Source: a virus. From it: 58,097 nucleotides of DNA. The notes beneath the pieces are model-generated. The model saw only the letters and a list, made by a program, of their open reading frames with translations, did no database searches and was not told the origin of the DNA. Location of the stretch: IMG/VR virus record IMGVR_UViG_3300030508_000030, positions 1 through 58,097 of that record. One strand, written 5' to 3'. Each line of letters opens with the position of its first letter. Position 1 is the stretch's first letter. The translations under genes and the position numbers were made by a program. Below, piece after piece: positions 1,287-53,020 of the stretch.

Positions 1287-1701
1287 GGTGGAGCCAGAGG
1301 GAGTCGAACCCTCGTGTTTAACGTTTACGTTCTGTAGGAACTCACATGCTTATCGCTGGTTTCTTCCAGGAGAATATCAGATTGCATTTATATCTCGGTA
1401 TAACAGCATTTTGCTAAGTGCTGCAGTTACGCTCAATGGCAGAAAAGCGAAACCACATTTACCCGACCACACTTGGCAAACACTTAGTAGTTTGCGCACT
1501 CTCCAGCAAGCTTATTAGGCTGCGATAGCACAAGGTGCTTCGGACTTGCTGAAAATGTTTCTTAGAATTGCGCCGCCTTCAGCGATTCTTTTGTTTTTTG
1601 CGTTTATAGCATCGAATGTATTTATTAGAGGAACTCAATTCGAATTGTCCCTGCATGACTACTGACTCATACACCGTTAAGTCGATAACCTGTTTGGCCC
1701 C
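1287..1701 (-). ncRNA. ssrA: Transfer-messenger RNA (tmRNA)
   Basis: tmRNA rescues stalled ribosomes and adds a degradation tag. The 5' GGGGCCA (1701-1695) pairs with the 3' TGGCTCC (1296-1290) in a 7-bp acceptor stem with one G-U pair, followed by discriminator A. The T arm is perfect: GAGGG, loop TTCGACT, CCCTC. CC follows the discriminator but the final A of CCA is not encoded. Upstream of the T arm, AAGCATGTGAGTTCC resembles the same region of bacterial tmRNA. The tag frame ends ...GCTATCGCAGCC-TAATAA, closely like the E. coli tag end. The length of about 413 nt is normal and the gene is not permuted. A TATTTAAA box lies 21 nt upstream of the 5' end. Confidence 0.93.
1512..1601 (-). other. 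tmRNA tag reading frame (28 codons plus two stops)
   Basis: The likely resume codon is GCA at 1601-1599. The bases before it, ATAAAC, keep the A, U, A and C at positions -6, -5, -4 and -1 seen before the E. coli resume codon (ATAGUC). Reading on gives a 28-residue tag that begins AKNKRIAEGG and ends SEAPCAIAA, followed by TAATAA. The ending matches the usual x-A-A degron, with Ile in place of Leu. The tag is unusually long; most bacterial tags are about 8-15 residues. A shorter tag is possible if the resume codon lies further downstream. Confidence 0.7.
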
Positions 1702-20941: not shown

Positions 20942-21598
20942 ATGAAGAGGATTATTGGTTTATTGACTTGTGTGTATCTCTTTGTGGTCTGCTTGATGTT
21001 GTCTTTCGACGATGGCGGTTCGCCTTCGGTGGTTTTGAGGAAGCATTTTTACGTTAGCGATTTCGACACGACGAGGTTCGTTCCACTTTACACCGAGTAT
21101 TGGTTGACTAAGGCTCACGAAGTAGGCACTTACGACAGGACGCCGTTCAAGATGGATACTTCACTGCCTAAGAGGCTGCAGAGCAACGGCAGTGAGTACA
21201 ACGACATTTACGATCGCGGTCACCTCGCACCAGACGACGACTTTAGGTTTGACAGCATCGCACAGGCCGAGTCTATGCTTTACACGAACGCCGCACCGCA
21301 GGTGAAGAGTTTTAACCGCGGTTTGTGGAGGATGGTGGAGAACTACACCAGGAAGGTCGCTTTACAGTACGATAGCGTCTTCGTTACGACTGGCTGTATC
21401 TACTCTGACAAGAAGCTCGGCAAGTTGAGCATACCGGACTACTACTACAAGATACTCGTCTACAAGGGCCACAAGGAGGAGTTCCTCGCGGCCAACAAGA
21501 TTTACGCCAAGAACGACATCAGCCTGATAAGGCTCGACCTTACTAAAGATAGCGTCGAAGGGCGTCTCGGTTACAAGCTAATCAACTTCTACAACTAA
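20942..21598 (+). CDS. Secreted DNA/RNA non-specific endonuclease (NUC1 type)
   Basis: The N-terminus is a signal peptide or anchor (KRIIGLLTCVYLFVVCLML). The nuclease core has the ββα-metal motif DRGH (residues 91-94, His94 general base), TNAAPQ (Asn116), FNRGLW (Asn125) and Glu133 in MVEN, matching Serratia-type nucleases. It probably degrades nucleic acid outside the cytoplasm, for nucleotide scavenging or competitor exclusion. It opens the plus-strand accessory operon just downstream of a promoter, and its stop overlaps the next start (TAATG). Confidence 0.88.
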   Translation: MKRIIGLLTCVYLFVVCLMLSFDDGGSPSVVLRKHFYVSDFDTTRFVPLYTEYWLTKAHEVGTYDRTPFKMDTSLPKRLQSNGSEYNDIYDRGHLAPDDDFRFDSIAQAESMLYTNAAPQVKSFNRGLWRMVENYTRKVALQYDSVFVTTGCIYSDKKLGKLSIPDYYYKILVYKGHKEEFLAANKIYAKNDISLIRLDLTKDSVEGRLGYKLINFYN

Positions 21599-21903
21599 TG
21601 AGGTTCATACGTGATATTCTTATACTTATCGCTTTCATCTGGCTGTTTATGTTTATTCTCATAACAGAGGATAAAATGAGCTACAAGGCAGGCGAGATAC
21701 ACTACTGCGTCGAGATGGTGGACGGCAGTAAAATATATTGCTATAATGCCTTCTACTCGAGCCACTACAACTACAACACCGATCAGTACGACAAGGATCA
21801 GATTCTCGTGGTCGAGCAGGCAGTAGGTGTGTATCCAGATAACGATATAGTTTCCGCGTATTACAGTCCGAATCAATTTGTAAGGTTCTATAAAGTAAAA
21901 TGA
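21598..21903 (+). CDS. Small membrane-anchored protein (101 aa)
   Basis: Not recognised. One N-terminal transmembrane helix (DILILIAFIWLFMFILIT) is followed by a 75-residue domain outside the membrane with many Tyr and a Cys pair (HYCVEMVDGSKIYCYNAFY). It is coupled to the nuclease gene before it (TAATG) and overlaps the next start, so the three are one operon. It may be an envelope factor working with the secreted nuclease, inferred from the operon only. Confidence 0.65.
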   Translation: MRFIRDILILIAFIWLFMFILITEDKMSYKAGEIHYCVEMVDGSKIYCYNAFYSSHYNYNTDQYDKDQILVVEQAVGVYPDNDIVSAYYSPNQFVRFYKVK

Positions 21904-22265
21904 TACGAAAAGGCGCAACAAGGTGGGTTATTTGCTTAGGTAGGTACGCGTTTAAGCTGCCATCCCTTCATAGTTATACCGACTTCCTCGGAGGCCTACG
22001 TTCAAACGTATTCGAGTATAAGACTTATGAGTATGCTAAAGAAGGTGCGTTTCCGATCGATAAATTCTGCCAGATCGTATTCAGTCTGCCACTCGGCTTG
22101 CTGAACGTCATGAGGAGGGCCGCGGTGATGAAAAACGAAGAGTTTAAGCACTTCAAAGTTGAGAAGTTCTGCAATATGGGCGATTATGTAATTCCGGTCG
22201 AGCACAAGAGCGACAGCTTCGGATGGCTAAACGGCCGAATAGTTGCAATTGATTACGGTTCGTAA
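21900..22265 (+). CDS. Conserved phage-type hypothetical (121 aa)
   Basis: Starts with an ATGA overlap. The protein has a pattern seen in many uncharacterised phage proteins: RWVICLGRYAFKLPSLHSY, FLGGLRSNVFEYKTYEYA, then CQIVFSLPLGLLNVMRRA, ending GWLNGRIVAIDYGS. I know of no function for this type. No membrane segment or signal peptide is evident. It is the last gene of the nuclease operon, followed by a promoter and terminator structure. Confidence 0.65.
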   Translation: MIRKGATRWVICLGRYAFKLPSLHSYTDFLGGLRSNVFEYKTYEYAKEGAFPIDKFCQIVFSLPLGLLNVMRRAAVMKNEEFKHFKVEKFCNMGDYVIPVEHKSDSFGWLNGRIVAIDYGS

Positions 22266-22276
22266 GCGGCTGTACA

Positions 22277-22299
22277 CCAGGGATTTGTTTGTATATTTG
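22277..22299 (+). promoter_or_regulatory. Promoter with Bacteroidota-type -7 box
   Basis: CCAGGGATTT, five bases (GTTTG), then TATATTTG (22292-22299). The terminator hairpin begins at its last base, so a transcript started here would meet the terminator almost at once. Confidence 0.62.
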
Positions 22300-22330
22300 T
22301 CTCGTATTCGTAAGATACGAGACATTTTTT
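22299..22330 (+). terminator. Intrinsic terminator / 5' hairpin
   Basis: A 9-bp stem GTCTCGTAT / ATACGAGAC with a 7-nt loop, then ATTTTTT. It ends the nuclease operon or acts as a 5' hairpin or attenuator for the next transcript. Confidence 0.75.
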
Positions 22331-22337
22331 ATTTAAA
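22330..22337 (+). promoter_or_regulatory. TATTTAAA box (plus strand)
   Basis: Plus-strand TATTTAAAGTTTT directly after the terminator, 58 nt before the 22396 start. Confidence 0.4.
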
Positions 22338-22395
22338 GTTTTAAACCGGAAAGAAAGACGAAGTTCACATACATAGAAGGAGTAAAAATTTAGTT

Positions 22396-22770
22396 ATGAA
22401 CACTAAGAGAGATTTTTTATCATTTGAGGAGGCGAGGGAGTTTGTCCATGGGCTTAAACTAAAGACGCACAACGACTGGATAGATTACGTGGAGTCTGGG
22501 AAACGCCCTGCTAACGTGCCGGCTAACCCTTACTTATTCTACAAAGGTCGTGGCTGGGTAAACTGGAACGACTGGATAAACAATAAGAAGACGTTTTTGC
22601 CATTCGTTGAAGCGAGGTCGTTCATACACGATGTCAACATAAAGAGCTTCAACGAATGGCGTAGATATTATAAGTCTTGCAAGCGGCCTGACAACATACC
22701 GACGGCGCCAAACAAGGTGTACGAGGGTAATGGTTGGGTTAGTTGGAACGACTGGTTCGGCAAAAAGTAA
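22396..22770 (+). CDS. Phage-integrase-repeat protein, two units
   Basis: A 124-residue protein made of two copies of a repeat of about 57 residues: FLSFEEAREFVHGLKLKT..W..Y..SGKRP..VP..P..FY...GWVNWNDW and FLPFVEARSFIHDVNIKS..EW..YY.SCKRP..IP..P..VY..NGWVSWNDW. This matches the phage-integrase repeat unit (PHINT_rpt). No integrase catalytic domain is present. Such proteins are common beside homing endonucleases or in large phages, and a DNA-binding role is likely. Confidence 0.85.
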   Translation: MNTKRDFLSFEEAREFVHGLKLKTHNDWIDYVESGKRPANVPANPYLFYKGRGWVNWNDWINNKKTFLPFVEARSFIHDVNIKSFNEWRRYYKSCKRPDNIPTAPNKVYEGNGWVSWNDWFGKK

Positions 22771-34952: not shown

Positions 34953-35447
34953 TTAATAGTTCAAAATCGCTGAATCGTAGGAAACATTAAGGGATACCTC
35001 AGCAATGTCGCCGTCGTTGTTCATGTCAAGCTCACCGCCGTCGAGCTCCGTGATAAACGCGCCGTTTAGCGTCCAGCTCTGAACAGGGTTTCCGCAGTCG
35101 TCTTCCATGAGAAGCGTAAGCGTCTTCTTGTAGATCGATGGGTAGCCGCCGCAGCCGGTTGCCGGGTCGTAGTGCTCTCTCTGCCACTGCCATAGCTTCT
35201 GCATAACAGAGGGCCCGACGACGTCGCGGAAGACGATTGTCATAGGTTCGAACTTGCTTGAGCCCGCGTACTTCGTGTACCCGAGCTTGTATTTTACTTC
35301 CTTCAACGAGTTGGTCACCTTAGGCCTCGCAGCTTTCACCTGGAACCTTTCTGATATACCCATCTCAGGAGGAAATATGATGGACCACATGTCCTTACGG
35401 AGCATTGGAAATTCATTTGGAATCCCGCTAAAGAGAGATGTTGGCAT
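34953..35447 (-). CDS. gp19: Tail tube protein (T4 gp19-like)
   Basis: A 164-residue tube subunit of the gp19 family. Diagnostic segments are FPMLRKDMWSIIFPPEMG, ERFQVKAARPKVTNSLKE, KYKLGYTKYAGSSKFEPMTI, FRDVVGPSVMQKLWQWQR, YKKTLTLLMEDDCGNPVQSW, LNGAFITELDGGELDM and the closing strand DIAEVSLNVSYDSA. Size and layout match T4 gp19 (163 aa). A terminator follows the gene and an upstream TATTTAAA box lies 45 nt away, so it can be made in excess, as expected for a tube protein. Confidence 0.9.
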   Translation of the reverse strand: MPTSLFSGIPNEFPMLRKDMWSIIFPPEMGISERFQVKAARPKVTNSLKEVKYKLGYTKYAGSSKFEPMTIVFRDVVGPSVMQKLWQWQREHYDPATGCGGYPSIYKKTLTLLMEDDCGNPVQSWTLNGAFITELDGGELDMNNDGDIAEVSLNVSYDSAILNY

Positions 35448-37015: not shown

Positions 37016-39967
37016 TTAATACCAGTTTCCGTCAGCAACATTGTACACTATCTTGTAATGGACACCGGTAACAAAAGTTGTAGGGCAATTTACGCATAAG
37101 TTGCCTCCGCTCCCCCCGGCAACGTAATAGGACACTCCGCTAATAGTATTCTCTGCAACAAATTCAACAACGTCATTATCCTTTGCGTAAGAGCCTGTAA
37201 ATAATTGCATTGTCATGCTTGATAAAGAAGATGCAGGGTTAAGTATAGTAAATGTGTTCGGGTAACAAACGGCAGTACTTGCCGCTGCTGGTGTAAGTAT
37301 GCTCTTAGCTAAAACATTAGAAGTGTTATTGCTTCCATTGTACCAATAAGGAGTATGCTTTGTGTTATCATAAAAAAACGTGCCTTCGGAAGTGCCGCCA
37401 ACCGTGTTGCCGCCAATTTTTATGCCGCCCATAACCTCTAATGTTGCGCCAGCGGAAAACGCGGTACTATTTGCCGGGTTTAACCCTATCCTCATCTGCC
37501 CCGTATTGAAAGAGCCGTAAACTAAATCATTAGGGTTTGAAGAGCCGTCAAGGCCGCCGCCAATTATTAGGCTACTGTTTACGGTTGAAGTTTGAAACCC
37601 AGCCTTGTTTCCTAAGAATATATTATGACTACCGTTTGAGGTTATACTTGTACCGGAGTAGTTCCCTAAAAACAAATTATCAGTTGCGGTATATGTTGGG
37701 GGATATAGTGCATTTTGCCCAGCGTGGTCCCCTAAAAAAATACTATATGTAGAACCTTCATTTTGCCACCCCGCAAAATTGCCTATGTATATATTTGAGT
37801 TGCCGGTATTTTCGCTTTTACCGGCACCGGTACCCCATGCATAATTATGCAGTCCCGAAGATATGCCGCTTAATGCACCAGGTCCCCACGCATAATTATC
37901 TGTTGCTCCTTGTGTACTTGTGTCGTTTCCACTGCCGCCTATAAACTGGTTCGCGCCAAAATTATCAAGCTTTAAAACCGTTGGCGGCACGTTCATCCTT
38001 ACCATTGAACGAAAGTCAGATGTGGTAGGTATTTTTCTTGACTGTATTACCGTGTTGTAAACAATATCATGCTCACTCTGTATGGGGTGTATTTGGTCAC
38101 TCCAGTTGCCTGTGACACCAAGCTGCTGCGTAGGCGTGTATGTGTCAATGTAGGAGGTTGGGTAATTTGTAGAAATCCAGTTTGACAAAGTGGATAGTGA
38201 TATTCCGTAATTTTCCCAAATTTGGTTCATATTCACCACGGTAATGCCAGCAGCAGTGAGCGTACTTACAATGGTGCCATAATCTGTATACAAGTTTGAA
38301 TAAGAATATGCAACGTCATTCCTACCTATACACAGCAATACGTATTTTGGTGCCAAAGAAATAATTTCGGGAAGCCTGTTTACCACGTCTCTTACCCCTT
38401 CGCTGCCGCCTATGGCCACTACGGAGGGGTAAAAGAAGTTTGCTAACTTTTGCGGCCACCTGCTGTTAAAACCATTGGCTACGTATGTACCCTTGCTGTC
38501 GCATGTAACATACATATTTGCCCCGATCAGTTCGTTGCTTGATATGCCCATGCTGTCTACCGTAAAAGCTCCTGTATTGGCAACAAAGCCAAAACGCCCA
38601 GTGTTAGGTGTTCCTTGGTTAGTTCCGTTTGTGTTATAAGCGAATGCGCATTTAACCCAACCTGCTGCCGTTGTGGCATCAAGCGCGTAACAATATATGC
38701 TGTCAATATCCCGTTCCAAATCAATAACAATCTTGTCGTTTGTGCTAATAGTCAGATGTCCTGCACTTGTTGCCTGCACGCTTGGTGTATATGTGCCGCC
38801 GGACAGGTCTGTTGAGGTCAAGGTAAGGTAACCCGTTGAGGCATCCACTTGCGCATACAATGAAAACCCTTCATACACGTTCGTGCTGTGTATGCCAATC
38901 CCAATTTTTGCGCTTGTGTTGGTTGCTATTATTCTTGCAAAGAAATTCCATTTTTCCAGCATGGAATAATAATTATAATCCGCGCTTGGCAAATTGCCAC
39001 TGCTGTACGTAACAACCAATTTGCCGCCGCTTATAGTTGGCGTGGCACCGTTGGCAGTCCAATTTGTAGTATTAACCCAAGTGTTGGTAGCGAATATAGT
39101 ACCCAAGCCATGCGCTGCCGCACTGCCGCCACCGCTTGCCGCTGCCCAACTGGTGGCCGTACCGTTAGTGGTTAAAAACTTTCCACTGTTGCCAGTTTGG
39201 CTTGGCACGGCGGTATTTACCGCATTGGTTACATCGCTTTTTACCGCCAAGGTATCACCGGGCTTGCTTGGCCAATACATTGTAGTGGCTGTGCTTAAAG
39301 GGGTTGGGTTGGGGTAAACAAAAAAGTTATTTGCGCCTGCTATCTGCCCAAACACCCCTGTTGTAACAAGTCCGTTGGCTGTTATGCTGTTTGTTGTTGT
39401 GCCGCTAACACCTGTTATTGCCTGCAATGTGGCATCCGTTATACCGTACCCGCTTAAGGTAGTTGGTGTGCCTGTAATTTTGCTCCAAGAAAATGTAGTA
39501 ATCCAACTTGGGTTTGTATAGCTACCCGACAATTGCGGGTAACGGGCATCGTTATTTGATTGTGTTGTATAACCGCTTGGGTTTGTTGAATTGTAAGGCG
39601 TATAACCCAAAGCAGTGGTTACATTGCTGCTGGTAATACCTGTAAGGAAATTAGACGGGTTACCGCTCAACGGGTAAGCATCTGTAATACCATAACCCGA
39701 AAGTGTCGTTGGCTTGCCTGTTATCGCGCTCCACGCAGTAGAGCCACCAGACATGTGGTTATGTATGTAATTGTATATAGCGTAAGACGTAGGCACGGTC
39801 GTATGATCATTACCAGCGAGCGAGGAATCGTCCAGCACGCCGCTCAAGCTGAAACCGTTTATGATCAGTGTTTGCTTCGCGTTCACAATATTACCTTGTA
39901 CGACGTTCTGTGCACCAACTTTTATTATAGAGAATGCAATTAATAATGACAGTAATAATTTTTTCAT
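37016..39967 (-). CDS. Fibre-like protein with signal peptide and SGNH hydrolase domain (983 aa)
   Basis: The N-terminus is a Sec signal peptide (KKLLLSLLIAFSIIKVGA, then Gln). Fibre-like SGYGITDAYPLSGNP and TALGYTPYN repeats follow. An SGNH (GDSL) hydrolase domain spans about residues 485-640: Ser491 in TCDSKG, Asn550 in GRND and the pair Asp624/His627 in DQIHP. It probably deacetylates a surface glycan. The C-terminal part has Hep/Hag-like repeats (NYAWGPGALSG, NYAWGTGAGKS, IYIGNFAGW, IFLGDHAGQ) and a Cys-containing cap. Its first ~125 residues closely match the 41959-44325 protein. A signal peptide on a fibre protein is unusual. Confidence 0.82.
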   Translation of the reverse strand: MKKLLLSLLIAFSIIKVGAQNVVQGNIVNAKQTLIINGFSLSGVLDDSSLAGNDHTTVPTSYAIYNYIHNHMSGGSTAWSAITGKPTTLSGYGITDAYPLSGNPSNFLTGITSSNVTTALGYTPYNSTNPSGYTTQSNNDARYPQLSGSYTNPSWITTFSWSKITGTPTTLSGYGITDATLQAITGVSGTTTNSITANGLVTTGVFGQIAGANNFFVYPNPTPLSTATTMYWPSKPGDTLAVKSDVTNAVNTAVPSQTGNSGKFLTTNGTATSWAAASGGGSAAAHGLGTIFATNTWVNTTNWTANGATPTISGGKLVVTYSSGNLPSADYNYYSMLEKWNFFARIIATNTSAKIGIGIHSTNVYEGFSLYAQVDASTGYLTLTSTDLSGGTYTPSVQATSAGHLTISTNDKIVIDLERDIDSIYCYALDATTAAGWVKCAFAYNTNGTNQGTPNTGRFGFVANTGAFTVDSMGISSNELIGANMYVTCDSKGTYVANGFNSRWPQKLANFFYPSVVAIGGSEGVRDVVNRLPEIISLAPKYVLLCIGRNDVAYSYSNLYTDYGTIVSTLTAAGITVVNMNQIWENYGISLSTLSNWISTNYPTSYIDTYTPTQQLGVTGNWSDQIHPIQSEHDIVYNTVIQSRKIPTTSDFRSMVRMNVPPTVLKLDNFGANQFIGGSGNDTSTQGATDNYAWGPGALSGISSGLHNYAWGTGAGKSENTGNSNIYIGNFAGWQNEGSTYSIFLGDHAGQNALYPPTYTATDNLFLGNYSGTSITSNGSHNIFLGNKAGFQTSTVNSSLIIGGGLDGSSNPNDLVYGSFNTGQMRIGLNPANSTAFSAGATLEVMGGIKIGGNTVGGTSEGTFFYDNTKHTPYWYNGSNNTSNVLAKSILTPAAASTAVCYPNTFTILNPASSLSSMTMQLFTGSYAKDNDVVEFVAENTISGVSYYVAGGSGGNLCVNCPTTFVTGVHYKIVYNVADGNWY
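39752..39967 (-). repeat. 216-bp duplicated 5' gene segment, copy 1
   Basis: The first 216 bp of the SGNH fibre gene align without gaps to 44110-44325, the first 216 bp of another signal-peptide fibre gene. The start-codon end is identical over more than 40 bp. This indicates fairly recent copying of the secretion and adaptor segment. Confidence 0.8.
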
Positions 39968-39971
39968 TAAT

Positions 39972-41948
39972 TTATTTTTTTAAATACAAGTATCTTCCTA
40001 TAGCCGAATTTGTATTGTTCTTTTTGATATAGTTTCTAACTCTTACCAGTTGGCCTACAGAGTTAACGCCGTATATTATCCCATTGTGTTCGTAACCTAT
40101 GCTTATATCTTGGAAAGTTGCCTGATAAGGGTAGAATGATCTCGGGATACCTGAGCCGAGAAGTCTGCCATCGGAAAGTATGTAATAGCCAGATTGATTT
40201 TGGTATGACACGGTGTCAATTATTTTTCTCGTCAATAGATTCATCTTATATTCCTTAGTCGAGTTGATTCCATATAGGTTATCGCCAACGACGAATATGT
40301 TGCCATAGTCTGTAAAGCCAGGTATGTTTATGCTGTCTTCTATCGTGTTGTTTTGGGCATTATAGAAAAATATAAAAGGTTTCTCAACCGTGGTGTCGGC
40401 GGACCCTGATGTCATCAGTGTCCACTTTTTATATGAGGCGAGGCCTCCGTCATACAACAAGTTTGGCCTAATAGTATAATCTATGCCGAGAGCGAGGTTT
40501 TGATTTACGTTATAACAGCCGAGACCGATTGTGTTAGCTATCCTTATCACTTCTCCGGTGGCGACTATAATGGTGTCGCTGTAATCATAATTCAAGGTGT
40601 ACGTGTGGTGGAAACCGGCCGGCGGAGTACTCGACGTCTTGAAGTAAGTTATTAGGCTCGGGTTGCTCGATGTGGTTAACGGGACGACCTGTGCTTGAAT
40701 TAGTTTGTCCGTCGTCCATGGCTGTGTGAAATCGTAATACATGACGGCGCCAGACGGGTAGCCTCCGAGGTACACGCCTTTGTGTCCTGGTCTGTTGTCT
40801 ATTAACGCGGAGTACAAATTGGTAGGTGTGTTACCGAGAGGGTGTACAACGCCGGTGTATATATTGTAGCTGTATTCCGGGCCGTATTGTATGTTCGCTT
40901 TATAATATATGGTCGTGTCGTCAATTGTGAATATCGGGCCGCTGATGGTCAGCAGTAAACTATCTGCAGGTACAACTACACTATCTATCGTTGCCGATCC
41001 GGTGCCGAAACCGTGGGTCATAAAGACATAGTTCGTTATAGGGTCATATATTGATGTGTTATAATAATATCCGGCGACCGGTGTGTTGTATATTTCATAA
41101 TAGTTTATTTGATCGCCTGCGGTTGGATCCCCTACCGTCCATGGTGGTTGCGTTGTGTGCATTGCGCCTCCATACAAATAGTAAAAACCGGCTGGAAGTC
41201 CACCGCCGGCATAGTCTTGTTGTACCATACAATACCCCTTTTCTGTCGTTAGGTTGTAACGAGTTGATACAGGATTACTTGACAGCTCGAAATGCACGCC
41301 ATCAGATTTCCTTGTCGCATATAGAAAAATGCTATCGGTCTGTCCGACTTGAGAATAAACCCAATCGGTATCTCCTGTTACCGATAGGATGTAGTTTTCG
41401 AGATAGTTTATTGTCGAATAAGTTGTAAATGTTTTTGTAACCGGATCGTAAAAGCCAGGCTTGCTATCTCCTTCCTCGCCCATATATATTTTGCCATCCC
41501 TGCCTAATGCCATTGAGTATACAGTAGTGCCTGAAAATGGTGCGCCAAGGTCATGAAGGCCTATGGTATCTGGGTCCTTCAAGTCAAGTCTGTAAACGTG
41601 TCCAGCGCCTGGCCCGTAAATTGCCGATATATAGACGGTGCCAGTTGAATCGTAAGTAGAGGCCCAAAGCTGTCCAGCGTAATACTGTGAGCTGTCTATC
41701 CTCTTGGTTACGACTTGTTGTGTTAGAATATCTATCCTTACTACCTCAATCGGCTTTGAAGGTTCTGGATAATTGACATTAAAACCAACAACGTACGGGT
41801 CCCCATTGGTCATCACACCTTGTATGTTAGAAGATATTGTGAACTGTTTAGTTGAGCCTACTGCGGCCGGAAATGTGTCTATTATTGCTTGGCTGTTAGC
41901 TTTAAAAAACACCATAGCTATGACTAAAAATGAAATTATTTTTTTCAT
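39972..41948 (-). CDS. Exported beta-propeller-like protein (658 aa)
   Basis: Signal peptide KKIISFLVIAMVFFKANS, then Gln. The rest contains propeller-like blades with short Gly/Asp turns (VYRLDLKDPDTIGLHDLG, YSMALGRDGKIYMGEEGD, YILSVTGDTDWVYSQVGQ, LIDNRPGHKGVYLGGYPSG, GNIFVVGDNLYGINSTKEY). No enzyme motif is seen. Proteins of this layout are common as host surface proteins in Bacteroidota. It lies between two exported fibre genes on the same strand, five and ten bases from its neighbours. It may be a receptor-binding subunit or a secreted accessory factor. Confidence 0.72.
   Translation of the reverse strand: MKKIISFLVIAMVFFKANSQAIIDTFPAAVGSTKQFTISSNIQGVMTNGDPYVVGFNVNYPEPSKPIEVVRIDILTQQVVTKRIDSSQYYAGQLWASTYDSTGTVYISAIYGPGAGHVYRLDLKDPDTIGLHDLGAPFSGTTVYSMALGRDGKIYMGEEGDSKPGFYDPVTKTFTTYSTINYLENYILSVTGDTDWVYSQVGQTDSIFLYATRKSDGVHFELSSNPVSTRYNLTTEKGYCMVQQDYAGGGLPAGFYYLYGGAMHTTQPPWTVGDPTAGDQINYYEIYNTPVAGYYYNTSIYDPITNYVFMTHGFGTGSATIDSVVVPADSLLLTISGPIFTIDDTTIYYKANIQYGPEYSYNIYTGVVHPLGNTPTNLYSALIDNRPGHKGVYLGGYPSGAVMYYDFTQPWTTDKLIQAQVVPLTTSSNPSLITYFKTSSTPPAGFHHTYTLNYDYSDTIIVATGEVIRIANTIGLGCYNVNQNLALGIDYTIRPNLLYDGGLASYKKWTLMTSGSADTTVEKPFIFFYNAQNNTIEDSINIPGFTDYGNIFVVGDNLYGINSTKEYKMNLLTRKIIDTVSYQNQSGYYILSDGRLLGSGIPRSFYPYQATFQDISIGYEHNGIIYGVNSVGQLVRVRNYIKKNNTNSAIGRYLYLKK
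39979..39986 (-). promoter_or_regulatory. TATTTAAA box
   Basis: Minus-strand GTATTTAAAAAAATAAATT, 11 nt before the 39967 start. The box overlaps the end of the 39972 gene, so transcription may restart inside the cluster. Confidence 0.45.
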
Positions 41949-41958
41949 AAATTAATTA

Positions 41959-44325
41959 TTAATAGTAAGAAGATGTACCCGCATCCCAGGTAAGCGTTAT
42001 TTCTTGTCCTTGCGAAGCGGTTGTTAGGGCGCCTTTAACGGTTGCGCCAGAAAAGCTCAAGCTTGCTATGCTTTGTGTAAACTTGAATTTAACTTCGTCA
42101 CCATCCAATGGTGACAGTGGAAGGTTTATGGTTAAGGTGGCGAGCGCTCCTGTAGGGCTTATTAAGTTAAGATACCTGTTTAAAGCCGTTATGGTACTGC
42201 CTGTTGTTGGAGTGAATATTGTTTTGTTTATTATGCCACCCATGATAGTCTGGCTGCTATCATCGATCCAATGAGCATATACAATAGCGGCCGCGGCCGT
42301 GTCATTGGTGGTTACTTCCAACATTATCTCCCTGCCTGGTGCAACGGCCGTAGGTTTACGCCCGTCCCATCTCCATGTGGTAGGAAAATTAACTTGGGTG
42401 GCGGTCGGAACGCTTGCCGGAGCATAAGTATTAGTTAATACAAATTTTATTTTATTCCCCTGTAATAAAGTTGTGTTTCCACCTCTGTTAAAATAAATAT
42501 AAGTCGTTGCTTGAGATAGATTTCCATAGAATGTGCTACCCTCGAGCGGAGATATTGTAAGCGTATCAGAAATATTTATATTGTCTACAGAACTGGTCAT
42601 TACGCTTCCTACCTGGTTGTAGCTCTCAATTGAATATCTCGCAAAAATATTCCTTAAATCGTATAAGCCGTTTAGACGGCTATATGCGTATTGTAACAAG
42701 TACATCCTTCTTGATGAAGCGCTGTCAACATAATCTACCGTATTAAACCATGTGCCATATCCGCCAGCACCAAATCCGGCTGTTGCATGACCAGAAGTAG
42801 TAAGGAAAAGATCTCCCAAATTGGTTTGAGCGGTTTGGCCTAATTGCGGGAAGGACACGCCTTTAGTTTTCGATAGAAACGAACCCATATAAGCAGTCGT
42901 TGAGCTTGGCACGAATGCGAAACCAAAATCACCAGAAGTGAATGCGAAACCTGATTGATTAATCAAATCATTTTTATTCCCAGCCGACCCAGGAGTGTTA
43001 AATAATATAGTTCCGTTGGCTTGTAGATTTACACTTGGTGTTGATGCACCTTCTGACCATGAAAATATTTGAGTTCCATAGTGGTTAGTAAAATTCTCTT
43101 GACTTGAAGAGATACCAAGTCCATTATTGCCATTTTGAAAATAAGTTGTTCCATTTGGGAAAATACTAAACCCACTATTATTAAATGATATATAAGGTGT
43201 ACTGCCACCGTGTGTTTTAAAGAGTTCTACACCTGTAGAACTATAGTTACCCATTTCTACAGTACCGTTAGCAGCATCATCGCCAATAAAAAAACTGCTT
43301 TGATTTATCAAACTCGTCACATTGAGGACGTTTTTTATTGCGGTGCCTGGAACTACCGCGTTAATGAACGAGGTGCCGCTAATGAATGAGGTTTGAGCAT
43401 CGAAGTATAAATCGTTCTTTAAATGTGTATCGCCGTAAACGTCTGTTTCTGTACTGTCCCTAACATACACACCGTGGAAAACACCTGAATAATCAAGCCA
43501 TCCAAGTCTTGATTTTATTTGACCGAAGTAGTCAGCTGTTTGTCCCTTGCCAAGGATATAGTTTCCGCCGAGCGTAAAAACGCTATCTCCAGCATTAAGC
43601 GTAGCTATGTGTGTAGCCCCAAGTGCGGCTATAGAGTTTGCGGAAATGTTTACTGTGTCATCATTGAAGACGACGAAATTGTAGTTTAAACCATTTGATA
43701 AGCCGTTGTGGACGAATCCACCAATGTTTGCAAAACCATTTGCCACGAGCGAATCGCCAGGCGTCACCAACGAAACTATATTACCGCTCTTAGTGAAGTA
43801 GTTTGTTCCACCCCCGCCACCAGAGATTGTCCAACTCCTGTTTGTACTTAAGTCATAGGTGATTCCGTTTATTGTTATCGTCGTTGTAGTAGGCACATAA
43901 GAAGACAACGCGGATGAAGTTATATATCCAGAAGGGTTTGTAGCATTATATGGCGTAAATCCCAATGCGGTTGTTACGTTGCTGCTTGTTATTGAAGTAA
44001 GGAAATTAGATGGGTTTCCGCTCAACGGGTAAGCATCAGTGATTCCGTAGCCAACTATATTGTTAGGCTTGCCAGTTATAGAACTCCAATCCACACTACC
44101 GCCACCAGACATGTGGTTATGTATGTAATTATAGATCGCATACGTTGTAGGCACGGTCGTATGGCTGTTACCAGCGAGTGAAGAATCGTCCAATACACCG
44201 TTCAAGCTGAAACTGTTTAAGATCAATGTCTGCTTTGCGTTCACAATATTGGCTTGCACGACGTTCTGTGCACCGACCTTTATTATAGAGAATGCAATTA
44301 ATAATGACAGTAATAATTTTTTCAT
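41959..44325 (-). CDS. Exported fibre-like protein (788 aa)
   Basis: The N-terminal 125 residues nearly repeat those of the SGNH fibre: signal peptide KKLLLSLLIAFSIIKVGA, then Gln and the same fibre linker (GYGITDAYPLSGNPSN, TALGFTPYN). After a Gly-rich hinge the middle is long and beta-rich without an obvious enzyme motif (YFTKSGNIVSLVTPGDSLV; NQSSFFIGDDAANGTVEMG). The C-terminus (NRYLNLISPTGALATLTINL; GQEITLTWDAGTSSYY) resembles C-terminal domains of fibre proteins. It probably differs from the SGNH fibre in receptor specificity (inference). Confidence 0.75.
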   Translation of the reverse strand: MKKLLLSLLIAFSIIKVGAQNVVQANIVNAKQTLILNSFSLNGVLDDSSLAGNSHTTVPTTYAIYNYIHNHMSGGGSVDWSSITGKPNNIVGYGITDAYPLSGNPSNFLTSITSSNVTTALGFTPYNATNPSGYITSSALSSYVPTTTTITINGITYDLSTNRSWTISGGGGGTNYFTKSGNIVSLVTPGDSLVANGFANIGGFVHNGLSNGLNYNFVVFNDDTVNISANSIAALGATHIATLNAGDSVFTLGGNYILGKGQTADYFGQIKSRLGWLDYSGVFHGVYVRDSTETDVYGDTHLKNDLYFDAQTSFISGTSFINAVVPGTAIKNVLNVTSLINQSSFFIGDDAANGTVEMGNYSSTGVELFKTHGGSTPYISFNNSGFSIFPNGTTYFQNGNNGLGISSSQENFTNHYGTQIFSWSEGASTPSVNLQANGTILFNTPGSAGNKNDLINQSGFAFTSGDFGFAFVPSSTTAYMGSFLSKTKGVSFPQLGQTAQTNLGDLFLTTSGHATAGFGAGGYGTWFNTVDYVDSASSRRMYLLQYAYSRLNGLYDLRNIFARYSIESYNQVGSVMTSSVDNINISDTLTISPLEGSTFYGNLSQATTYIYFNRGGNTTLLQGNKIKFVLTNTYAPASVPTATQVNFPTTWRWDGRKPTAVAPGREIMLEVTTNDTAAAAIVYAHWIDDSSQTIMGGIINKTIFTPTTGSTITALNRYLNLISPTGALATLTINLPLSPLDGDEVKFKFTQSIASLSFSGATVKGALTTASQGQEITLTWDAGTSSYY
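44110..44325 (-). repeat. 216-bp duplicated 5' gene segment, copy 2
   Basis: Second copy of the segment at 39752-39967, spanning the signal peptide and first linker of the 41959-44325 gene. Confidence 0.8.
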
Positions 44326-46468: not shown

Positions 46469-47545
46469 TTAGTTTAACAACATGGTTCCAGAAACAGTAG
46501 TGACGTAGTTACTTACGTAAATGTCATACGACTGAGTCCACCCAAGCGTGGATGTGATGGACAACGAGACAGGGGACGCGAACAGGTTGCTGCCGCCGCC
46601 TATTGCACCTTGGTTGATTGACGTAACATACCATGTCGTGAACGTCTTAGATCCAGTAGGGACCGCAAACCATATAAAATTGTTAGGCTCGCCAAAGCTC
46701 GATATTGATATTGAACTTGGGACAGCGGCTACAACTTTGTTAGTAGCAACGCCAATGCTTCCAGAATACATGTTCGCCTGTACATCCGAGCTCGATCCGG
46801 TAGCGGACGTACCGTAGAAGTAAGGGTAAACCGGCGTTATCGTAATTATGTTAGACAGTATGTTGCCGGCCTGTATCTGACCGCCTGGCGAAGGGTTGCC
46901 GAGGTTTGTATTTTTTATAGGCCCAGCTCCGTAAAAAGCGTTAGACTGGTAGCTTACAGCAGCGGAGATGGCATAAGACGGATCTGTATAAACGAACGGC
47001 GCCTGGGTAATGTTCTGTATCATGGAGCCGTTCTTGTTGAATTTTATATTAACCAACGAGCCAGCGTCGTTCTGCGTGAATGCAGAAGTAAGGAGTGGAC
47101 TGATGGAGGAAAGCTTTTCAACCACCGCGCCAACGCTCGACGTAAGAGACACCGTAGGTGGCGTGTAAGTAGGAGCTATTTCGTTTATAAGCAAGTTCCT
47201 TATTATGGCTTCGATCGAGGTGCCCACGTTGAATACAGTTCCGGACGGAATGCCTCCGAGATTTCCAACGCCTTGTGATTGCAGACTTTGTGATATTACC
47301 GCACCAACAGTCTTAATTATCAAATTAATGTTAGCCGTACCGTCCCTATACCAGTATTCCGTAAGGCCGCCACCATTATCTACCAATATGGTAAGACCTC
47401 TGTATCTATATGCAATTGATAACAAACCGTTGGCTTCGTCAACAGATGCATAAGGTATAGAAACACCACCAACTGTTTTGCAATATTTGTCATCTACTGC
47501 TTTAGGGGCGGTTATAATAAAGTTATCATTCGTCTGTTGTCCCAT
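46469..47545 (-). CDS. Tail fibre with shared adaptor (358 aa)
   Basis: The N-terminal 75 residues are the adaptor (NDNFIITAPKAVDDKYCKTV, YASVDEANGLLSIAYRYRG, TEYWYRDGTANIN). A domain of about 280 residues follows, with Gly/Ser-rich strands (PPTVSLTSSVGAVVEKLSS; TFTTWYVTSINQGAIGGGSN). No enzyme motif is visible. It has its own TATTTAAA box. It is the fibre gene closest to the plus-strand exported gene pair. Confidence 0.78.
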   Translation of the reverse strand: MGQQTNDNFIITAPKAVDDKYCKTVGGVSIPYASVDEANGLLSIAYRYRGLTILVDNGGGLTEYWYRDGTANINLIIKTVGAVISQSLQSQGVGNLGGIPSGTVFNVGTSIEAIIRNLLINEIAPTYTPPTVSLTSSVGAVVEKLSSISPLLTSAFTQNDAGSLVNIKFNKNGSMIQNITQAPFVYTDPSYAISAAVSYQSNAFYGAGPIKNTNLGNPSPGGQIQAGNILSNIITITPVYPYFYGTSATGSSSDVQANMYSGSIGVATNKVVAAVPSSISISSFGEPNNFIWFAVPTGSKTFTTWYVTSINQGAIGGGSNLFASPVSLSITSTLGWTQSYDIYVSNYVTTVSGTMLLN

Positions 47546-47563: not shown

Positions 47564-47571
47564 TTTAAATA
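47564..47571 (-). promoter_or_regulatory. TATTTAAA box
   Basis: Minus-strand GCTATTTAAAGAATAAAC, 18 nt before the 47545 start. Confidence 0.45.
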
Positions 47572-47651
47572 GCCCTTTTTTAACTCCACATGTCCTATTA
47601 TATAATTATTCCGGATACCCTATTTCGGCGCTTGCGGCGCAAAAAAATTCT

Positions 47652-47674
47652 CCAGGGATTTCGGTTTACATTTG
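47652..47674 (+). promoter_or_regulatory. Promoter with Bacteroidota-type -7 box
   Basis: CCAGGGATTT, five bases (CGGTT), then TACATTTG (47667-47674). It lies 17 bases before the 47692 start and is the best match in the family. Confidence 0.72.
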
Positions 47675-47691
47675 TGTCTAAATAAATAAAC

Positions 47692-48441
47692 ATGAAAAAT
47701 TTAATTTTGTCTTTGATTTTAGCAATGCCGTTAATATCCATGTCCCAGACGACCATCAGGCAGGGTTTCGATCACAGCTCCGGCGAGTGGGTTCTTACCA
47801 ACTTTAGGATTGAGTCCCAGAACGTTATATGCGATATAAATTCGCTGCAAACAACCGGTGGGTTTAGCTCTTACAAAGTGTACAGGCTGTACTCCGACTC
47901 GTTTAAGACCACTTCGACCAGCGCAATAACGGACACCTTTGCATACGTAATATCCATTAAGGACACATCTGCCACATGGAACATTAAAGTGTATGCTCAG
48001 AACGTTAACATTTTTAGCAAGTCTTACGGCGCCAAGTTCCAGTTGGGCGAGGTGGTCGGCAAAGGCCCAGTTTCAGGCGCGAGCTGCAGCGTATCAAACT
48101 ATGCATCCTACGTAAACAACGTGCCGCCGGGAACTTATCGGATAATAACGGACGTAACCACATCTAACGTGGGCACAAATAATGACTACATGCTGATAGA
48201 TAACGAGGTTATAACGTACAACATCAACAAGACGCTCGCCATAACTTTCGGTGGAATATCCGCGGAGAAGGTCGACGAGAACACCGTCAAGGTGTCATTC
48301 AATGTCCTATCAGTGACCGGTAAAAACGTTTACAATATTCAGCTTTCGACGGACGGTAAAAACTTCAAGACCTATGCAGTCGTGTTCCCAGAAGGAACGC
48401 AGCCAAACCAGACTTACACAACAACAATAAAAATAAATTAA
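47692..48441 (+). CDS. Exported protein with C-terminal Fn3/T9SS-like domain (249 aa)
   Basis: Signal peptide MKNLILSLILAMPLISMS, then Gln. The mature part is a beta-rich domain with a Cys pair (VICDINSL; ASCSVSNY). The C-terminal 50 residues (ISAEKVDENTVKVSFNVLS, NVYNIQLSTDGKNFKTYAV) resemble the Ig-like domains that end many Bacteroidota secreted proteins. The gene faces opposite to the surrounding fibre genes and has its own early-type promoter, so it is probably an accessory gene. It may alter the host surface during infection. A structural role is less likely. Confidence 0.78.
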   Translation: MKNLILSLILAMPLISMSQTTIRQGFDHSSGEWVLTNFRIESQNVICDINSLQTTGGFSSYKVYRLYSDSFKTTSTSAITDTFAYVISIKDTSATWNIKVYAQNVNIFSKSYGAKFQLGEVVGKGPVSGASCSVSNYASYVNNVPPGTYRIITDVTTSNVGTNNDYMLIDNEVITYNINKTLAITFGGISAEKVDENTVKVSFNVLSVTGKNVYNIQLSTDGKNFKTYAVVFPEGTQPNQTYTTTIKIN

Positions 48442-48443
48442 GC

Positions 48444-48605
48444 ATGAAAAAGTTTATATTAGCCGCTTTGATATTTTCAGGTTGCGCAAAAGGCGTGGCG
48501 TTGAAGGTCACAAGCCAACCGAGCGTGATTTTCGTTAGGGTACAATCGATAGATAGCAACGCGGATTCTACGTACTCCAGCGTTGTGTCGATAAAAATGA
48601 ATTGA
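48444..48605 (+). CDS. Small lipoprotein (53 aa)
   Basis: Starts MKKFILAALIFSGCAKG with a lipobox-like FSGC (Cys14), so it should be a lipid-anchored envelope protein. The mature part has 40 residues with many Ser and Val (VTSQPSVIFVRVQSIDSN). The start lies two bases after the stop of the exported-protein gene, forming an operon; the terminator follows directly. It could be a spanin-like partner or a surface factor paired with its neighbour. The lipobox is the main evidence. Confidence 0.7.
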   Translation: MKKFILAALIFSGCAKGVALKVTSQPSVIFVRVQSIDSNADSTYSSVVSIKMN

Positions 48606-48634
48606 AAAAACGCCAGCAACATTGCTGGCGTTTT
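48605..48634. terminator. Bidirectional intrinsic terminator
   Basis: Stem AACGCCAGCAA / TTGCTGGCGTT with a two-base loop, A run on the left and TTTTGTTTT on the right, between convergent genes at 48605 and 48638. Confidence 0.85.
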
Positions 48635-48637
48635 GTT

Positions 48638-49678
48638 TTATGAGGACATGATCATGACTCTGTAGTTTTGCTGAGTTAGGTAGTTCGTGTAGTATACCCT
48701 GTAACTGCCTATTGTTATCGGTGTACCGAACAGGTCCTTGTTGTTGTCGCCTATGTTTCCCTGGTTGAACACGTCGCAGTACCATTTTGTCTTGACTGTT
48801 TCGCTCAGCGGTTCCGCCATTACGAGAATTTGCGGAGCCTCGTTTGCTCTGAAATCGGCAGGTATGCTCGCGCCAAATGTCGCATTACCAGTAAATGGAA
48901 GCGCCTCTATCGCTTCGTTACCACCGGATATTAGCGATTCTATGGAGTCTACCCATCCGCAATAGAATGTAAATTGATTTACCTCTATAAACGTAGTGTC
49001 AGTAGCGATGAAGTTGTTACTGTCTATTACTTGTATCCTGTATACGTACGTCCCGCTTTGCAACCCGTTTATTATCGTGTTGGCGCTCGTAGGCGTAAGT
49101 ATGTTTGAAGCGGTCGGGCCGGATAGTTGTACCCATGCGTAACTAATCACAGTGCCTGTTCCTGGCGTAACCGTTGCAGCCAAAGTCGTCTGCATATTAG
49201 ATATAAACTGTGGAGCGCCGGCGTCCACAACTGGCGCCGTAAAGCCACCTGTGTTATTTATTAAACTCGTGGCTATCGTGGTGTTACACTTGTCAGATAT
49301 TATCACCAAGCTAAAGTTGTCCGTTCCAACCGGTATGTTGATCGATATGTTTGACGGGAAGGGGTAATTTACAGTTGTGCTGTAAACTATCTGGCTTGTG
49401 GTAATGCTGATGAGGTGTATCGTATAACCGCTGTGGTAGTTGCTGTCCGTCATGAAGTTTACAGAGACTACATCGTTAGCTACGGAGGTAGTAAGATTGA
49501 ACACAGCCCCACACACATCGTTAGATGCGCCATTTAATAACGCCTTTTGCAAAAATTTATCAGGACCTTGATAGTTCCAAGCGGCCACATACGCATCATC
49601 AGAACCCTGCTGTGGGTTGTTAACGTTGAAGTCGTATGAGGTTGATGAGAGTATGTTCGTGTTGGTAGTGTCAGCCAT
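48638..49678 (-). CDS. PKD-domain fibre-like protein (346 aa)
   Basis: A beta-rich protein with a PKD domain at about residues 152-236: VDAGAPQFISNMQTTLAATV, VISYAWVQLSGPTAS and SGTYVYRIQVIDSNNFIATD. The N-terminal part (FNLTTSVANDVVSVNFMTDS) and a C-terminal part (NEAPQILVMAEPLSETVKTK) flank it. PKD domains bind polysaccharide or protein. There is no signal peptide. It follows the sheath gene and a terminator, with its own TATTTAAA box 8 nt upstream, so it may be expressed separately. Confidence 0.75.
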   Translation of the reverse strand: MADTTNTNILSSTSYDFNVNNPQQGSDDAYVAAWNYQGPDKFLQKALLNGASNDVCGAVFNLTTSVANDVVSVNFMTDSNYHSGYTIHLISITTSQIVYSTTVNYPFPSNISINIPVGTDNFSLVIISDKCNTTIATSLINNTGGFTAPVVDAGAPQFISNMQTTLAATVTPGTGTVISYAWVQLSGPTASNILTPTSANTIINGLQSGTYVYRIQVIDSNNFIATDTTFIEVNQFTFYCGWVDSIESLISGGNEAIEALPFTGNATFGASIPADFRANEAPQILVMAEPLSETVKTKWYCDVFNQGNIGDNNKDLFGTPITIGSYRVYYTNYLTQQNYRVMIMSS

Positions 49679-49686
49679 TTTTATTT

Positions 49687-49694
49687 TTTAAATA
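49687..49694 (-). promoter_or_regulatory. TATTTAAA box
   Basis: Minus-strand ATATTTAAAAAATAAAA, 8 nt before the 49678 start and immediately after the terminator at 49699-49730. Confidence 0.55.
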
Positions 49695-49752: not shown

Positions 49753-52572
49753 TTAATTGCTGAAAGTGATCGCGCCGTCCTGAAGAACGAAGTCGATGAT
49801 TATCCTTTCTACCGGGTAAAGAGGGACGATCGTAATCTGGCCATACAACGTTGTCTTGTCGGCTATCGTGTTCGCTGTAGGCGAGCTTGAATTATCGACG
49901 ATGGATACGCTGAAATCGTCTATACCGTTCAACTTCTTGATGCGATCAAATATAGGCGTAACCGTGTTTATGAACGCAGTCTGTGTGACATTGTTGTTCA
50001 AGCTGAACAATAAAGGCCTAAGTATCTGGTTTAGCACCTTCTTCGCATAGCAAAGAAGTAACCTGTTGTGTATGAAAGACAATGCTGAGAAAACGGACTG
50101 CGTTGTCCTAACACCGGATATTTCATAGCCGGAGCCTGGGAACGAAGTGATAGGGTTTATGTTTGCCGTGAACAATATTTCCCTGTCGTCTATTTTAAGC
50201 CTTCTCCTCGACCTGATCAGGTTGTTCGTAACCGTTCTAAGCGACCCGCCTGGTGGCTGCCACACGTTCTCGTTTGTGGAGACGTATGTTATAGTTCCAA
50301 GCGCGAGCAAAGAAGGCGGAACCCAAGGGTTAACCCCATTTATGGTATCGGAGATCTGAAGCCAAGGGAAGTAAACCGCGACGTTATTGCTCTGCATGTT
50401 GGAGTTGGTTAGTGCATCAACGGCCGCATTACAATCCGCGAGCGAATCGTAAGAAAAGTCTGGTATGTACAAACAGTCACCCCTCGTGTTAATCATATCA
50501 AGAACGTAATCGCACGCAACCTCATGGTCCTCGAAGTTTATATCAGGAGTCGTTAGTATAGTGAAGTCGGCATCGATAGACTCCTTGTCGCTCAATACGT
50601 CGACAGCCATGGTCCAAGCCTGGTAGTCAAGAGAGGTAGGGTCTGCCCAGTTCCTCGTGTTGTAAACGTTCCAGCCATCAAATCCGCCGGCGAAATCAAC
50701 AACGAACTTGTTCCTTATAACTTGATTCGCTGGAGTAACCACATTGCCGTTTATATCGGTGTATATAGTAGGCCTTGCAAACGTGAACACATTGCTCTGC
50801 ACGGAGGCGAAAGTAGTGTTGTTGGTTGGGTTCAAGTGGAAGCCCTTGCCGAGAATGGTAGCTCCACTCTTGTAAGTAAGCTGAGAAGGTGCAACCGCTT
50901 GGTTCATGTTTATAGAGTTGTTCGCAAGTCCAAGCGTCTGCTTGGTAATAGACTTGGTCTTGTCGTAATCTATCGTCCAGGCAAGGTCAGGCACTTTAAG
51001 TCCGGTTATGTTAGGGTAACCAAGGCAGCCCCAAGGCAACGCGTTGTAAGGCAGCTCCTCGTCGGTGTTCATTTCTATGAATATGAACCTCGATCTAAGT
51101 TGGAACTCCTCACCATCACCTATTCTCCTTAGAACATAGTTCTGAGAAGTAGGGTCAAGGTTCATGTTAGCGAATGTCTCATACCTGCTTGGAGACTGGT
51201 CCTCAAAATCGCCCCAGCCCCTTACCGACAAATCAAACGAGCCGCCGCCGTTATTAGTGGCGATGTTTATGTTGGTAATCTCGATTTTTATGTCGGTGTT
51301 CGCCGAAACGCCATCCGTTATAGCCCAGAACCTAAACAACCTCTTGTAGTGGCCGTTAGAATCTGTATCGGACACATACCAAGGTGTGTATGGCGTTTGG
51401 TATTGTGTGTTAGAAAAATCAAGTATTTCATTCTCCCATGTAGGCATGATATATTTTGCCACAACTGGCGTAGCACTTATGCTAAGCGTTGATGCAGGCA
51501 ATACAGATGACAATGGGGTATTCGTTGTTACATCGAGCAAGTCGAAAGTGGTGCTGCCGGCGCTGAACGCCACGTTAGTAACAGCCCATGTGCCGTTAAC
51601 GATCGCTATGTTGCCGGTACCGCTAACGCCGGACACTTCTACATCGGAACTGTTAGACAGCCATGCTGTTATATCAGATCCAACGGTTAACGTTGTACTG
51701 TTAGTGGTCGCAGTTACATTAGTTATAACCGCGTTTTGAAAAGTAAATGTAGTTCCGAATGCAGTTTCACCAGCGGTCAAATCAAGATAGTTCAACGCCT
51801 GAGTGCTTCCAGGTAGGTAATAAGCGGTGGTAAGCTCAGGCACTGGGTGCGATTGAACAGAAGGTATGATGAAATCTACCCAAAGCGGCGCGATCTTGTC
51901 GTTCATGTAAGGCACGGCGAGAGGGTCGGTACCAAATTTCTTCACGATGTACTGAGGCGAGCTTGGCCTTAGAGAAACCGTTATCGAATCAGGAGATATG
52001 GAGCCGGTAAGTGGCTGTACATACGATATTATTAAAGTGAAAAGATAATCAGTAGCCCTTGTTACAGGTGAGCTCGTTAGAGGGTCCGTATAAGTTGCGT
52101 TTGCTACCACAACGGAGTTAACCTGAGCGCCACCAGTTATTAAAGTGTTCCTCTGTTTCAATACGCAGACGAGGCCCTGTGGACCAGGAGCCAAAGCCGT
52201 AGGATTAGATGGATCAGTTATATTCGCAGGGGAAGAACCGGTGCCAGCGAGTGTGATACCATAGCCAACCGTATCTTTGTAACCCTCAAGACCTAACACT
52301 CTAACTTCTTTGTAATTGTTAGCTTGTTCGAGGTATTGCTTTGCAAAGTATGAGGTTGGAAAATCTGGGTTCAAATCACCAAGCCTAAAAGCCCTGTCGG
52401 TGTAAGTAGCAGAATTTGTTATTTCAAAAGCCGGACCTTTCTCAGTAAGACCAATAGCTGCTGCACTAAAGCCACCTGTAGCCTGAGTTACAACAGTCAA
52501 ATCAACCTCCCTGAAGTATACACCAGGAGAGTTGTAAGGAACCTGAGAAGCGGTCGTAATGTTAGTAGCCAT
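49753..52572 (-). CDS. gp18: Tail sheath protein (T4 gp18-like, long form)
   Basis: Contractile sheath subunit. The N-terminus reads NSPGVYFREVDLTVV with YFAKQYLEQANNYKEVRVLG. The C-terminal domain shows the sheath signature: ISGVRTTQSVFSALSFIHNR, YAKKVLNQILRPLLFSLNNN, FINTVTPIFDRIKKLNGIDD and YPVERIIIDFVLQDGAI. At 939 residues it is much longer than T4 gp18 (659 aa), so extra surface domains are likely in the middle. It is the first gene of the long minus-strand tail block. Confidence 0.92.
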   Translation of the reverse strand: MATNITTASQVPYNSPGVYFREVDLTVVTQATGGFSAAAIGLTEKGPAFEITNSATYTDRAFRLGDLNPDFPTSYFAKQYLEQANNYKEVRVLGLEGYKDTVGYGITLAGTGSSPANITDPSNPTALAPGPQGLVCVLKQRNTLITGGAQVNSVVVANATYTDPLTSSPVTRATDYLFTLIISYVQPLTGSISPDSITVSLRPSSPQYIVKKFGTDPLAVPYMNDKIAPLWVDFIIPSVQSHPVPELTTAYYLPGSTQALNYLDLTAGETAFGTTFTFQNAVITNVTATTNSTTLTVGSDITAWLSNSSDVEVSGVSGTGNIAIVNGTWAVTNVAFSAGSTTFDLLDVTTNTPLSSVLPASTLSISATPVVAKYIMPTWENEILDFSNTQYQTPYTPWYVSDTDSNGHYKRLFRFWAITDGVSANTDIKIEITNINIATNNGGGSFDLSVRGWGDFEDQSPSRYETFANMNLDPTSQNYVLRRIGDGEEFQLRSRFIFIEMNTDEELPYNALPWGCLGYPNITGLKVPDLAWTIDYDKTKSITKQTLGLANNSINMNQAVAPSQLTYKSGATILGKGFHLNPTNNTTFASVQSNVFTFARPTIYTDINGNVVTPANQVIRNKFVVDFAGGFDGWNVYNTRNWADPTSLDYQAWTMAVDVLSDKESIDADFTILTTPDINFEDHEVACDYVLDMINTRGDCLYIPDFSYDSLADCNAAVDALTNSNMQSNNVAVYFPWLQISDTINGVNPWVPPSLLALGTITYVSTNENVWQPPGGSLRTVTNNLIRSRRRLKIDDREILFTANINPITSFPGSGYEISGVRTTQSVFSALSFIHNRLLLCYAKKVLNQILRPLLFSLNNNVTQTAFINTVTPIFDRIKKLNGIDDFSVSIVDNSSSPTANTIADKTTLYGQITIVPLYPVERIIIDFVLQDGAITFSN

Positions 52573-52649: not shown

Positions 52650-52672
52650 CTGGGAATTTTGTACTACTTTTA
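52650..52672 (+). promoter_or_regulatory. Promoter with Bacteroidota-type -7 box
   Basis: CTGGGAATTT, five bases (TGTAC, identical to the 20907 copy), then TACTTTTA (52665-52672), a weaker -7 box. It lies 21 bases before the 52694 start. Confidence 0.55.
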
Positions 52673-52693: not shown

Positions 52694-53020
52694 ATGAATT
52701 TTCTATCTTTTTTGTCCTTCGGATTGCCTAACATATTGATTATTATTGCGATGTTTGCAATAAAACTAAAGGGTAAAATGAACCGTAAAGGGGTCTTGTT
52801 TTTCTGTTATCCTTGGATCAGCGCAATCTTTTACATACTGACACTTGTGAATGTTTTTACCATGAAATGGTACGAAGCCGGAATACAAGCCGCTTGGTTA
52901 ATAGTGTTTTTCGCAATAGTGGGAATCGGCAAATCAGGAGATCAGACGTCCGGAATTATTAAATTTTTTATTGCCATATCGGCTTTATTCTCGGTTTCCT
53001 TTACAATAGCATTAATTTAA
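52694..53020 (+). CDS. Small membrane protein (108 aa)
   Basis: Not recognised. Three to four hydrophobic segments are visible (FLSFLSFGLPNILIIIAMFA, GVLFFCYPWISAIFYILTLV, GIQAAWLIVFFAIVGI, IIKFFIAISALFSVSFTIAL), with basic residues between the first two. It is the first gene of the right-hand plus-strand operon. A role in membrane exclusion or host takeover is possible but untested. Confidence 0.65.
   Translation: MNFLSFLSFGLPNILIIIAMFAIKLKGKMNRKGVLFFCYPWISAIFYILTLVNVFTMKWYEAGIQAAWLIVFFAIVGIGKSGDQTSGIIKFFIAISALFSVSFTIALI

Follow-up and report, generated by a model that had tools for sequence, protein, structure and literature searches.

ORF1 and ORF2, two adjacent plus-strand genes carried by a virus of Bacteroidota, look like two halves of one FN3-type domain. 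We propose that their products form a two-chain envelope complex in which ORF2 completes the half domain of ORF1 and tethers its passenger to the envelope early in infection, a reading to which we give a probability of roughly 0.68. The unit, its promoter class, the homology of both halves and the recurrence of split pairs in other genomes were all seen in sequence comparisons. A sequence-only reading of the same DNA had described a protein plus a lipoprotein and missed the likeness of the two ORFs to halves of one domain; with this likeness, the mechanism would become that of one lipid-tethered two-chain complex.

The cassette, its promoter class and its phage setting

The window is the whole stretch of DNA analysed, a 58,097-base IMG/VR virus record of a T4-like myophage. 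The compact plus-strand unit claimed earlier was borne out, with a promoter, a signal-peptide ORF, a lipoprotein ORF and a terminator between minus-strand genes on both sides. The features are as follows.

46469-47545, minus strand: left neighbour gene
47564-47571, minus strand: TATTTAAA, late-class motif belonging to gene 46469-47545
47643-47674, plus strand: early-class promoter, AAAAATTCTCCAGGGATTTCGGTT-TACATTTG (phage-specific motif AGGGATTTCGGTT-TACATTTG), from the held-out profile score
47692-48441, plus strand: ORF1, 249 aa, exported (ORF call, codon score 0.36 bits/codon)
47692-47748, plus strand: ORF1 signal peptide, residues 1-19, MKNLILSLILAMPLISMSQ (crude prediction from sequence)
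48214-48438, plus strand: ORF1 residues 175-249, FN3-type strands A-E, a half domain (profile of cellular N-halves)
48444-48605, plus strand: ORF2, 53-aa lipoprotein with the MKKFILAALIFSGC lipobox and Cys14
48528-48596, plus strand: ORF2 residues 29-51 (IFVRVQSIDSNADSTYSSVVSIK region), strands F-G (alignments A6 and A8; profile positions 71-92)
48607-48634, both strands: bidirectional intrinsic terminator, 12-bp stem
48638-49678, minus strand: right neighbour gene
49687-49694, minus strand: TATTTAAA, late-class motif belonging to gene 48638-49678

The gap between ORF1 and ORF2 was 2 nt. In-frame codon scores were respectively 0.36 and 0.26 bits/codon (mean of the long phage genes, 0.30), and the other frames across the pair scored lower, most of them below zero, indicating that both ORFs look coding. 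ORF2 has the n-region, hydrophobic stretch and lipobox Cys of a Bacteroidota lipoprotein, with a less usual F at position -3 of the lipobox. The terminator hairpin had an energy of -19.2 kcal/mol (z -5.0) on the plus strand and -18.7 kcal/mol (z -6.0) on the minus strand, and a T-rich tail was present on both. The earlier view of a self-contained cassette with exported products is supported. The cassette is not the sole source of exported products in the block; three large minus-strand fibre-like proteins (983, 658 and 788 aa; 37016-44325) also start with signal peptides, which is odd for virion proteins, and two of them share a near-identical N-terminus and have fibre-like repeats.

The promoter had also been called early-type and its neighbours late. 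The distinction between two motif classes held, as judged from the profile score of the cassette promoter and from the presence of TATTTAAA at both neighbours, 8-18 nt before the ATG. This motif lies just upstream of many minus-strand structural genes, and 21 of its 34 copies were within 40 nt of a start. The cassette promoter is not sigma-70-like, since a sigma-70 scan returned no match at its site. It carries TACATTTG with GGnATT about 13 nt upstream, an arrangement common to other plus-island and early-region genes. When a profile was trained on four sites of this class (20942, 55859 and two G001 genes) and the cassette was left out, the cassette promoter scored 22.3 bits, more than any other site outside the training set on the two strands of 97 kb; sites at 52672 before gene 52694 (20.2 bits) and at 22299 before gene 22396 (16.9 bits) came next. 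The name 'early' was less secure; we infer it from gene content (the RNA ligase region) and because TACATTTG resembles the Bacteroidota -7 box, TAnnTTTG. The -33 TTTG element is absent from the cassette promoter class.

The same promoter class precedes a gene for an exported DNA/RNA non-specific endonuclease (20942-21598; PF01223, E 1.8e-33, DRGH motif), a gene for a multi-TM protein (52694-53020) and, at G001 site 66537 (L089, 66537-67382), three tandem, mutually similar lipoproteins of 87, 91 and 98 aa. Several early-class promoters therefore serve envelope proteins, which fits early envelope remodelling and indirectly favours an envelope role for the pair. At positions 20942-22770 (plus strand) the minus-strand block contains another plus-strand island, which has the promoter class of the cassette; its exported nuclease is a candidate for degrading incoming DNA while it is in the periplasm.

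G001, a near-identical contig of 83,900 bases, covers window positions 1-45085 with few internal differences; it stops before the cassette and contributes 39 kb beyond the far side. The tail sheath gene was located at 49753-52572 (PHROG 23, E 3e-32), and a putative tail tube gene at 34953-35447 was assigned from gene order in relatives, where it follows the sheath. The two genes are approximately 0.8 to 7 kb apart in relatives, with small genes between them; here the distance is 14 kb and includes the fibre genes and the cassette. Comparison of related phages, proposed earlier as a check, showed that the pair is absent from the short sheath-tube interval of syntenic relatives, and ORF1 was found in none of the phage relatives searched. 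Two relatives, L003 (5410-6129) and L019 (4265-5179), have an unrelated exported-protein gene immediately upstream of the neck gene, and the L003 protein contains a full FN3 domain. A tmRNA gene with the tag AKNKRIAEGGAILRNIFSKSEAPCAIAA was predicted by ARAGORN at 1287-1701 (minus strand) of the window.

Half domains in ORF1 and ORF2 and their cellular counterparts

Searches with whole ORF1 and ORF2 against viral contigs, genome contigs and phage records gave nothing significant, and sequence searches of Pfam, PHROGs, NCBIfam and PDB returned noise only. The ORF1 passenger (residues 20-172) had no family match. The single-sequence AlphaFold model of ORF1 was poor (pLDDT 41; about 55-74 across the C-terminal part), and fold searches with it found nothing significant. 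In a scan of 395 Bacteroidota genomes there was one good match, a 411-aa secreted protein of G279 (E 1.4e-5 per genome). Its C-terminus consists of an ORF1-like segment, two TM helices around RR, and finally CTRNDQTIISNKKNVFVRIIQVDIDGTTTASKVIKATIQD; mature ORF2 aligns to this last part over the full length.

Approximately 40 secreted cellular proteins from three Bacteroidota genomes combined the two parts in a single chain, with TM-RR-TM-[SAG]C[STN]K between them, a TM hairpin whose end bears a lipobox-like Cys. This 160-residue module was present in 12 to about 20 proteins each in G279, G423 and G514 (L142, L180-L215); it was almost always C-terminal, and most carriers had a visible signal peptide. 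Its invariant residues include Trp31, Cys121, Arg138 and Ser151 (P0001 numbering), and ORF2 Cys14 aligns with the invariant Cys (alignment A6). The C-terminus of ORF1 and ORF2 align to the two halves of the module, invariant Cys, Arg and Ser included; however, the phage form is divided into two ORFs, and TM1 and the RR stretch are missing from it. For the module, no model of Pfam or NCBIfam exceeded its cut-off in the proteins tested, and no family name was found. Two of the cellular module proteins (L187, L194) also match the NCBIfam 'choice-of-anchor Q' domain. Weak matches on the hairpin of some cellular modules were obtained with NF058595 invert_tail (lipo-invert putative C-terminal anchoring domain), a model whose name suggests an inverted lipoprotein-type C-terminal anchor. 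It had no match in the phage window (G000), and no match reached its curated cut-off of 37 bits, the cellular module genomes giving at most 18.8 bits; these weak matches were discarded because all 14 control genomes also gave matches at the threshold that admitted them.

When the profile of cellular N-halves was used, ORF1 residues 175-232 matched with an E-value of 2e-9 (best shuffle, 0.16). ORF1, which begins with a signal peptide, stops at residue 249, after strands A-E. The mature part of ORF2, the small lipoprotein encoded immediately downstream, matched the tail profile, which covers strands F-G missing from ORF1, with an E-value of 6e-7, above all 2000 shuffles. Each of the two half-domain matches was unique among the ORFs of the 97 kb. 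The strong ORF2 match is to the module tail profile with the TM-Cys stretch included; against the ordinary FN3 profile alone it was weak (E 0.034, 12-sequence set). Similarly, ORF1 was the best match in the window to an ordinary T9SS-type FN3 profile at an E-value of 0.04, and the module-specific profiles alone were decisive. The post-Cys tail profile matched strands F-G of ordinary Bacteroidota FN3 domains, at up to about 1e-8. An AlphaFold model of an ordinary FN3 domain from the L003 phage protein (pLDDT 91), which matches FN3 structures, has strand E at 66-72 and strand F at 78-88, indicating that the phage split point lies in the E-F loop.

Tail alignments were used to search for short open frames with a Cys, and the genes upstream were then inspected. 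Split pairs of the same layout were found in G310, G574, G503, G549 and G472 and on a contig with a viral label, L224. The genes upstream of the tails in the five genomes encode secreted proteins ending in an A-E half. On L224, an 8.5-kb contig that may be cellular, an esterase-like protein is followed 4 nt away by a 57-aa lipoprotein. In the split pairs tested, the first protein fell within profile positions of about 1-65 and the second within about 63-92. Some pairs are apparent orthologues (G310/G574, G549/G472), which makes the number of independent cases smaller than the number of pairs. A circularly permuted pair was present in G043 (L261 1072-2864), where the secreted protein ends with LPVKFKSFKATNIK (strand A, a match below significance by itself) and the overlapping lipoprotein has F-G first and then B-E. 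Without assembly of the two chains, such a permuted and divided domain would be difficult to account for.

Proposed envelope complex and alternative readings

We infer physical assembly, membrane and timing. ORF1 would be exported by Sec, with an all-beta passenger in front of an FN3-type domain whose last strand is E. ORF2 would be exported as a lipoprotein and lipidated at Cys14, and its 39-residue mature part (after the Cys) would contribute strands F and G, which ORF1 lacks. Once in the periplasm, the proteins would form a single complete FN3 fold through strand complementation, and the lipid anchor of ORF2 would thereby keep ORF1 attached to a membrane, probably the outer membrane. ORF2 is without the acidic residues of known Bacteroidota surface-export signals, which slightly favours a periplasm-facing outer-membrane location. 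As the promoter class is not the late one, the host envelope is the likely target of the cassette at a time before virion production or while it proceeds. In cellular proteins of the one-chain type, TM1 would bring the polypeptide back to the cytoplasm and RR-TM2-SC(S/T)K would act as an internal lipoprotein signal; signal peptidase II may therefore cut this form into the same two pieces.

A moron-type superinfection-exclusion pair, in which an exported protein and a lipoprotein act separately and share no domain, would account for the exported products, the distinct promoter class and the other envelope genes under that class. However, ORF1 and ORF2 match neighbouring portions of a single domain, and such halves lie side by side in other genomes too; we consider separate action unlikely. 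The cassette might instead be a functionless remnant of a captured cellular module gene that was split by loss of the TM hairpin, since one-chain versions exist in cells and no phage relative searched has kept the cassette. Such a remnant is improbable when the coding signal is intact, both ORFs have their own starts and export signals, the promoter is scored, a terminator is present and the same split layout recurs in cells.

The position of the cassette in the fibre block, next to fibre-like proteins that also have signal peptides, could mean that ORF1, like its neighbours, is a virion component, with an accessory role in fibre or tail. This is very doubtful, as ORF1 lies on the opposite strand under a promoter of a non-late class, has a lipoprotein partner and has no fibre repeats that could be seen. 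A -1 frameshift that fuses ORF1 and ORF2, giving a single chain like the cellular one, seems scarcely credible: the ORF2 frame is open just upstream of its ATG beside an A-rich stretch (read by eye), but the fused chain would have one TM and no hairpin, so that its tail would end up on the wrong side. Moreover, ORF2 starts with an ATG and an MKK n-region of its own, and the other pairs are clearly separate ORFs.

The two-chain complex was compared with known systems. Cryophage, a Bacteroidota phage, encodes T9SS cargo for which superinfection exclusion or strain competition was proposed (PMC7468147). It likewise encodes exported host-type proteins for the cell surface; that cargo, however, is one chain with a T9SS type A sorting domain, whereas the cassette has a lipoprotein partner instead. 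ORF1 had no NCBIfam or Pfam match to the T9SS C-terminal sorting domain (TIGR04183). By analogy, the cassette may reach a similar end via a different anchor. Several large Bacteroidota-type viral contigs (L225-L239) encode exported FN3 proteins, and the T9SS type A sorting domain was over its cut-off on two FN3-protein viral contigs, L226 and L227. The superinfection exclusion lipoprotein Cor (PHROG 1119) is, like ORF2, a small phage lipoprotein; identity with Cor was rejected because the match (E 0.051) covered residues 1-17 only and reflected signal-peptide similarity. Superinfection exclusion as the purpose of the cassette is plausible because the second early-promoter island encodes an exported nuclease; we propose it tentatively as the likeliest purpose, with the odds somewhat against it.

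Implications for anchoring in Bacteroidota and their phages

No description of such an FN3/lipoprotein anchor was found in the literature searched, which takes in a minority of subscription journals. Two-piece anchoring, in which a secreted passenger bears an FN3 domain short of its last two strands and a very small lipoprotein donates them, may be used by Bacteroidota and their phages, a possibility that we place a little short of even odds. Assembly of the halves, if it occurs, would provide a non-covalent and genetically modular way to place a soluble protein on a bacterial membrane, and an anchor scheme present in cells would have been borrowed by a phage. The proposal offers a concrete mechanism for an exported phage pair otherwise without an assigned function. 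It also predicts that some small orphan lipoproteins encoded downstream of Bacteroidota secreted proteins would be anchors for their neighbours.
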